This document shows positions 2,714 through 45,127 of a stretch of DNA of 64,000 bases, piece by piece. Made by a program: the position numbers and the translations under genes. Numbering within the stretch: position 1 is the stretch's first letter; each line of letters opens with the position of its first letter. The notes under the pieces were generated by a model. The model was not told where the DNA came from. It saw nothing but the letters and a program-made list of their open reading frames with translations, and did no database searches. Source of the stretch: Sabellastarte sp. h YS-2021 (taxonomy: Eukaryota; Annelida; Polychaeta; Sabellida; Sabellidae); contig OZ024936.1 in assembly GCA_964017235.1 (NCBI GenBank), positions 90,804,537-90,868,536 on the forward strand. Reading direction: 5' to 3'.

Positions 2714-2865
2714 TTACAGCCCAACTAATGAGACGTCAGGTGTACACTCGCCACACACAATTGGACAGCTATTCAACATGTAGCGGGGGTTTATTTCACA
2801 CTGACCGGATTTGGCCCAGTCATCACAGTAGATATTTCTATCCTGACACATCTCCAGCAGTAGTC
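2714..2865 (-). CDS. Exon 15: second ShKT domain and stop
   Basis: 49 residues (578-626) and the stop codon at 2714-2716. Cys583, 590, 599, 610, 614 and 617 have exactly the same spacing as exon 14, with DDWAKSGQCEINPRYM typical of ShKT. A nine-residue tail follows the last cysteine. Acceptor TTTTCAG, phase 1. Confidence 0.95.

Positions 2866-45127: not shown

Follow-up and report, generated by a model that had tools for sequence, protein, structure and literature searches.

A minus-strand gene in the window, the 64,000-nucleotide stretch analysed here (G000:C14:90804537-90868536 of a 1.79-Gb, 647-contig assembly), is real and probably specifies a zinc endopeptidase that acts outside the cell and belongs to an unnamed, M34-like family. 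In the mechanism suggested by its residues, His161, His165 and Glu208 of the core would bind zinc and Glu162 would activate the water. Tyr201 is predicted, by analogy with Tyr190 of PPEP-3, to line the oxyanion hole. A signal peptide and a propeptide would precede the core, and the trefoil-like and ShKT modules that follow the peptidase may anchor the enzyme on mucus, matrix or substrate rather than serve cutting or poisoning. The most likely use would be extracellular protein processing or digestion, perhaps of proline-rich proteins, at the surface of an epithelium or the gut. The family's split from its bacterial counterparts appears to predate the divergence of cnidarians and bilaterians.

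Ten of the fifteen exons proposed in the initial annotation were fixed from the sequence between positions 36443 and 2714 of the minus strand, with GT-AG borders and consistent phases. Joined, exons a to j form an open core of 497 residues, which ends at a TAA stop at 2714; the total of 626 residues first proposed was not confirmed. The mature peptidase region begins in exon a (36258..36443; CHRVRSVPDKLR...YTKYTEAYGIPII) and continues through exon b (31343..31465) and exon c (29818..29965), which carries the conserved columns of the W...RARGLG...GDDN region. Exon d (27756..27930) holds the HEMGH zinc site together with core Tyr201 and Glu208, the putative third ligand, and the peptidase domain ends in exon e (27158..27329). 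The cysteine-rich middle described earlier is encoded by exon f (26515..26666) and exon g (25209..25332), neither of which matches a Pfam family above cut-off. Exon h (12654..12785) encodes a degenerate trefoil-like module; exon i (7795..7926) encodes the first ShKT domain, and exon j (2714..2865) encodes the second ShKT domain and the stop codon.

The remaining five exons were placed between 36.4 and 45.1 kb, where a splice-score search of the window returned no convincing chain and no homologous counterpart was found. A candidate first coding exon on the same strand (45069..45127), with an ATG at 45127, a short hydrophobic stretch and a GTAAGT donor, is plausible without homology support. 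The signal peptide and propeptide reported at this end of the gene were not confirmed, since the N-terminal regions of the relative P0001 and of the paralogous region P1 have no convincing counterpart in the window. Both elements are nevertheless plausible ahead of the window core, because P0001, judged by eye, has a signal peptide and a long charged stretch, and stretches of weak similarity occur upstream in P1 (E 1.4 and 2.6). P0001 is a relative of 578 residues, 37 percent identical to the query across 89 percent of its length. Its reading frame is unbroken on a 1867-base contig, and its domains follow the same order as in the window, namely peptidase, trefoil, ShKT and ShKT. This contig resembles a spliced transcript, which would speak, indirectly as P0001 is another sequence, against separate transcripts for the window exons.

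The source animal is probably a lophotrochozoan, perhaps a mollusc or an annelid: among the best 120 of 7999 matches to its mitochondrial COI, annelids reach up to 78 percent and molluscs about 72-76 percent. Three paralogous regions of the same genome were compared with the window, P1 and P2 on contig C1 and P3 on contig C18. Exons a to f, i and j were matched in every region (24/24, with 34 to 76 percent identity), and this exon-by-exon agreement exceeds what alignment by chance would give. A counterpart of exon g was found in P1 alone and one of exon h in P2 alone. The intron separating exons b and c is absent from P1, in which the two run together. Over 366 to 385 codons, the window differs from its paralogues at fractions of 0.33-0.37, 0.24-0.30 and 0.58-0.62 of the first, second and third codon positions, respectively. 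Synonymous sites are saturated, so dN/dS is not computable and the codon-position differences were used in its place. These alignments show constraint on the gene at the protein level, because second positions differ far less than third positions.

Stretches similar to exon d occur at least 13 times in the genome, the window's own included, on contigs C1, C14 and C18, and contain no internal stops. HExxH is kept in all eight of the loci that were fetched from these 13 stretches (L001-L008, L001 being the window). The genome searches show a multi-copy gene family. A search with the whole domain yielded 51 exon matches, of which 19 contain internal stops; two of the 19 are window exons c and e, in which the match overruns the exon border into the splice-acceptor TAG. 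Another of the 19, at G000:C5:103650550-103651131, covers core residues 18-209 without interruption, with five stops and 33 percent identity, and is possibly an intronless remnant, a processed pseudogene.

The HEMGH motif on which the peptidase had been recognised is located at core residues 161-165. The putative catalytic residues are spaced at seven residues from Tyr to Glu, 43 from the second His to Glu and 39 from Trp to the first His. An alignment of 94 relatives, drawn from the best 120 of 196 protein matches (E 0.001), exhibits the same arrangement: HExxH is present in 91/94, the Tyr-to-Glu distance is seven in 91/94, the second His and the Glu lie 42 or 43 residues apart in 89/94, and, of the 88 rows having both Trp and the first His, 68 have the Trp 39 positions ahead of it. 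In the accessible text of the published accounts, the corresponding residues of the Pro-Pro endopeptidases (MEROPS M34) are His153, His157, Tyr190 and Glu197 in PPEP-3, whose Tyr occupies the place of the Trp in PPEP-1 (PMC12828418); His137, His141, Tyr174 and Glu181 in PPEP-2 (PMC9147577); and His142, His146, Trp103 and Tyr178 in PPEP-1 (PMC12943098). By these published numbers, the Tyr-to-Glu distance is seven and the His-to-Glu distance 40 in both PPEP-2 and PPEP-3, and the Trp-to-His distance is 39 in PPEP-1. The window protein thus shares with these enzymes the HEXXH motif, the Tyr seven residues before the Glu (PPEP-2 and PPEP-3) and, as predicted, secretion. It differs in the longer distance from the second His to the Glu (43 versus 40) and in its C-terminal trefoil-like and ShKT modules. 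That the window Trp occupies the same three-dimensional place as Trp103 of PPEP-1 is a guess.

Astacins (M12A) with ShKT domains are likewise secreted animal zinc peptidases, as the accessible part of one report describes (PMC6409789). The metzincin motif of the astacin (M12) type, HExxHxxGxxH, is absent from the window (HEMGHAIELLAAHF), in which HEMGH is followed by AIELLAAHF and not by xxGxxH, in agreement with the initial annotation. For the zinc exon, Pfam suggested M64 at a level below its cut-off (0.022), and this assignment was dropped; on longer pieces, M64 falls behind M90 and ATLF or is absent.

The proposed M34/ATLF-like layout finds support in its residue spacing and, weakly, in profile matches to the PDB, but the window stays below the Pfam ATLF cut-off (PF07737; 11.4 bits for the core and 12.8 bits for the peptidase part, versus 27.4). 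As in the catalytic domain of anthrax lethal factor (M34, Pfam ATLF), it is the same profile region that matches, and ATLF is found in 15/94 of the aligned relatives at E 0.001; the window gene differs from lethal factor in being found in an animal and in the domains joined to the peptidase. A precomputed ATLF label is carried by some relatives, for instance the brittle-star protein P0018. NCBIfam matched 0/94 family members. When the profile of the 94 relatives was compared with the PDB (to E 10), 19 matches were obtained, of which two are 37-residue chains matching the ShK region and seventeen are M34 chains (six of lethal factor, ten of Pro-Pro endopeptidases or Zmp1, and one ATLF-like). 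With the profile restricted to 35 named animal proteins, twelve matches were obtained to E 10, two ShK-region chains and ten M34 chains, and the window domain alone matched nothing in the PDB. The E-values are weak (best 0.0076 and otherwise 0.13-0.41 for the 94-relative profile; 0.68-1.2 for the animal profile) and a handful of proteins with many entries account for the seventeen matches; the weight is therefore carried by the absence of other peptidases. The peptidase is best described as M34-like, a label supported but not proven by its sequence; it is not filed as M34 because the profile matches are weak and the window lies below the Pfam ATLF cut-off.

The domain could instead be a member of a different gluzincin family, with M90 (MtfA-like) the nearest, or of a wholly separate one, in which case its likeness to M34 would be only that of a general zincin site. 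Among the peptidase families that score below threshold on the window core, M90 comes first (0.016; 15.3 bits versus a cut-off of 26.2), and it matches 15/94 members at E 0.001, as many as ATLF; the weakness of the PDB E-values for M34 chains also leaves room for such an assignment. The HEXXH motif is common to both. We nonetheless consider it unlikely, as none of the 35 named animal proteins gave an M90 match, whereas five match ATLF, and no chain named MtfA is found among the PDB matches to E 10, with MtfA structures assumed to be in the library. The Tyr-Glu spacing equals that of the published PPEPs, though MtfA has the same spacing.

Both C-terminal ShKT domains stand as first described. 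ShK (PF01549) matches the window protein in two stretches with an E-value of 4.2e-13 (50 bits, versus a cut-off of 20.9), and each domain has six cysteines at positions 1, 8, 17, 28, 32 and 35. The trefoil-like module of exon h was recognised from its alignment with the trefoil of P0001, for which none of 2000 shuffles was as good. The Pfam trefoil family (PF00088) has no match in the window protein and was matched by P0001 only among the 94 relatives (1/94). Two of the six trefoil cysteines are absent from exon h, and the same two are absent from the paralogue P2. In the trefoil fold these two cysteines pair in one disulfide, and their loss would then be concerted.

A catalytically dead or weak paralogue, acting chiefly by binding through the trefoil-like and ShKT modules, would accommodate these lost cysteines as well as several departures from the consensus. 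The window has Val four residues past the putative ligand, where 87/94 relatives have Glu, and GDDN in place of the consensus GEEN; it forms a long branch with P0001; and HExxH is missing in 9/278 domain sequences of the family, including the protein P0039 of the rotifer Brachionus. Against this, the window keeps HExxH, the Tyr and the Glu, HExxH is intact in the eight fetched loci, and the second codon positions are constrained. We doubt, on balance, that the protein has lost its activity, and an active M34-like endopeptidase is the preferred reading. A role in venom, either by ShKT blockade of potassium channels or by an enzyme in a secretion used on prey, is highly improbable: the accessible account of vampire snail venom (PMC6409789) does report ShKT proteins as components, M12 peptidases with ShKT among them, but neither window ShKT domain has, by eye, the Lys-Tyr pair given as the mark of channel-blocking ShKT in the available part of another (PMC7333891), and relatives occur in mussels, hemichordates and amphioxus.

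The combination of this peptidase with ShKT is not unique to the window and is common in animal sequence records. Two protein searches returned 196 and 203 matches at E 0.001, and the best 120 of each were considered. The matches listed include molluscs (Mytilus, Potamilus, Haliotis, Littorina, Babylonia, Batillaria, Elysia, Biomphalaria, Bulinus, Lymnaea and Aplysia), the annelid Owenia, the nemertean Lineus, the rotifer Brachionus, echinoderms (Diadema, Amphiura, Asterias and Apostichopus), the hemichordates Glandiceps, Ptychodera and Saccoglossus, the amphioxus Branchiostoma, the barnacle Amphibalanus and the cnidarians Clytia, Hydractinia, Rhopilema and Xenia. Among these listed matches, the animal records of the family are named 'uncharacterized protein' and similar. 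ShK was found in 26/35 of the named animal family proteins, and the other nine are without a match; this Pfam count replaces a strict cysteine pattern for ShKT, which found 2/39 proteins. Other partner domains were observed in single relatives, a fibrinogen C-terminal domain in P0168 of the brittle star Amphiura (1/35) and an F5/8 type C domain in P0027 of Hydractinia (1/35).

A scan of GTDB with a 14-sequence alignment returned at least 592 stretches, of which at least 570 encode relatives. The 80 loci kept (L029-L108) are all bacterial and derive mostly from Planctomycetota and Verrucomicrobiota, with a minority of two from Armatimonadota, one labelled Proteobacteria and some from unnamed bacteria. 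Proteins of the two main phyla, such as P0048 in locus L029, contain the same peptidase domain, and P0048 is 32 percent identical to the window core; it differs in its length of 301 residues and has no ShK among its precomputed domains. These bacterial relatives make up an unnamed peptidase family.

In a 74-row tree built with a quick method, the 34 bacterial rows make up one side of a branch with a support of 99. The rows nearest this branch on the animal side are those of brittle stars, sea urchins and sea stars, together with a long-branched Brachionus. The Owenia row P0014 is absent from this tree, as its domain fell outside the length filter, which 278/286 hits passed. A FastTree of all 278 rows separates 55 named animal rows from 87 bacterial rows without error, again with a support of 99, and 48 of the 136 unlabelled rows fall on the animal side. 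Long branches lead to both the window and P0001, whose pairing was flagged by a program warning. Only two EukProt entries appear among the matches listed, and they group with cnidarians without firm support. The trees are unrooted and give no direction; their rows are those listed by sequence searches that were not aimed at protist, fungal, sponge, insect, nematode or vertebrate sequences.

Transfer and deep ancestry had both been raised as origins of the gene. Within this sampling, an ancient separation of animal and bacterial sequences is favoured over a recent transfer, which is disfavoured because animals and bacteria separate cleanly on the trees. We read the split as a single ancient event: the family was either transferred early or inherited from deep within the eukaryotes and lost in places. 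A fuller history is conceivable, although we hold it with slightly less than even confidence: an ancient, unnamed, M34-like animal family, present also in Planctomycetota and Verrucomicrobiota, would have entered the animal line once before the cnidarian/bilaterian split and acquired ShKT, in some cases trefoil or other modules too, and its possible loss in some well-studied lineages would explain how it was overlooked.

The suggestion that the combination may be undescribed stands in part, with no animal M34-like peptidase bearing ShKT described in the portion of the open-access literature that was covered, and an earlier description may exist outside that portion; it is qualified by the frequency of ShK among the named animal proteins. 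In their accessible parts, published accounts place lethal-factor-like peptidases in bacterial toxin systems (PMC3482391), describe Zmp1 (PMC3841139) and link MtfA to lethal factor (PMC9266454, PMC3650047). The M34 peptidases in this cited literature, as far as it was available, are bacterial; a toxin component and Pro-Pro cutters are among them. With its many copies in the present genome, an animal branch would offer a non-toxin setting for learning the role of the enzyme. It would also pose a clear case of how animals share a secreted enzyme with planctomycete-type bacteria, and would add a kind of ShKT-bearing peptidase beside the astacins and MMP-23.

Several other elements were observed in the window. 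Reverse-transcriptase-like frames on the minus strand (13627-17339) lie within the 12.4-kb intron that separates exon g from exon h, with RVT_1 matches at 15182-15799 (E 5.7e-23) and 15721-16482 (8.7e-06, below cut-off). This insertion is apparently a LINE-like element, broken and split over several frames. Upstream of exon a, tandem repeats occur at 36540-36782 and 37601-37920, with units of 21 to 129 bases composed of TCGATTTATCGA-like words. An array of approximately 20 copies of a 33-base unit is located at 43521-44167, and long minus-strand open frames arise from it. On the plus strand, at 60265-61432, two open frames were observed, the second of which gives a weak match to a tyrosine-recombinase N-terminal domain (0.0011, below cut-off); these frames perhaps belong to a DIRS- or Crypton-like element.
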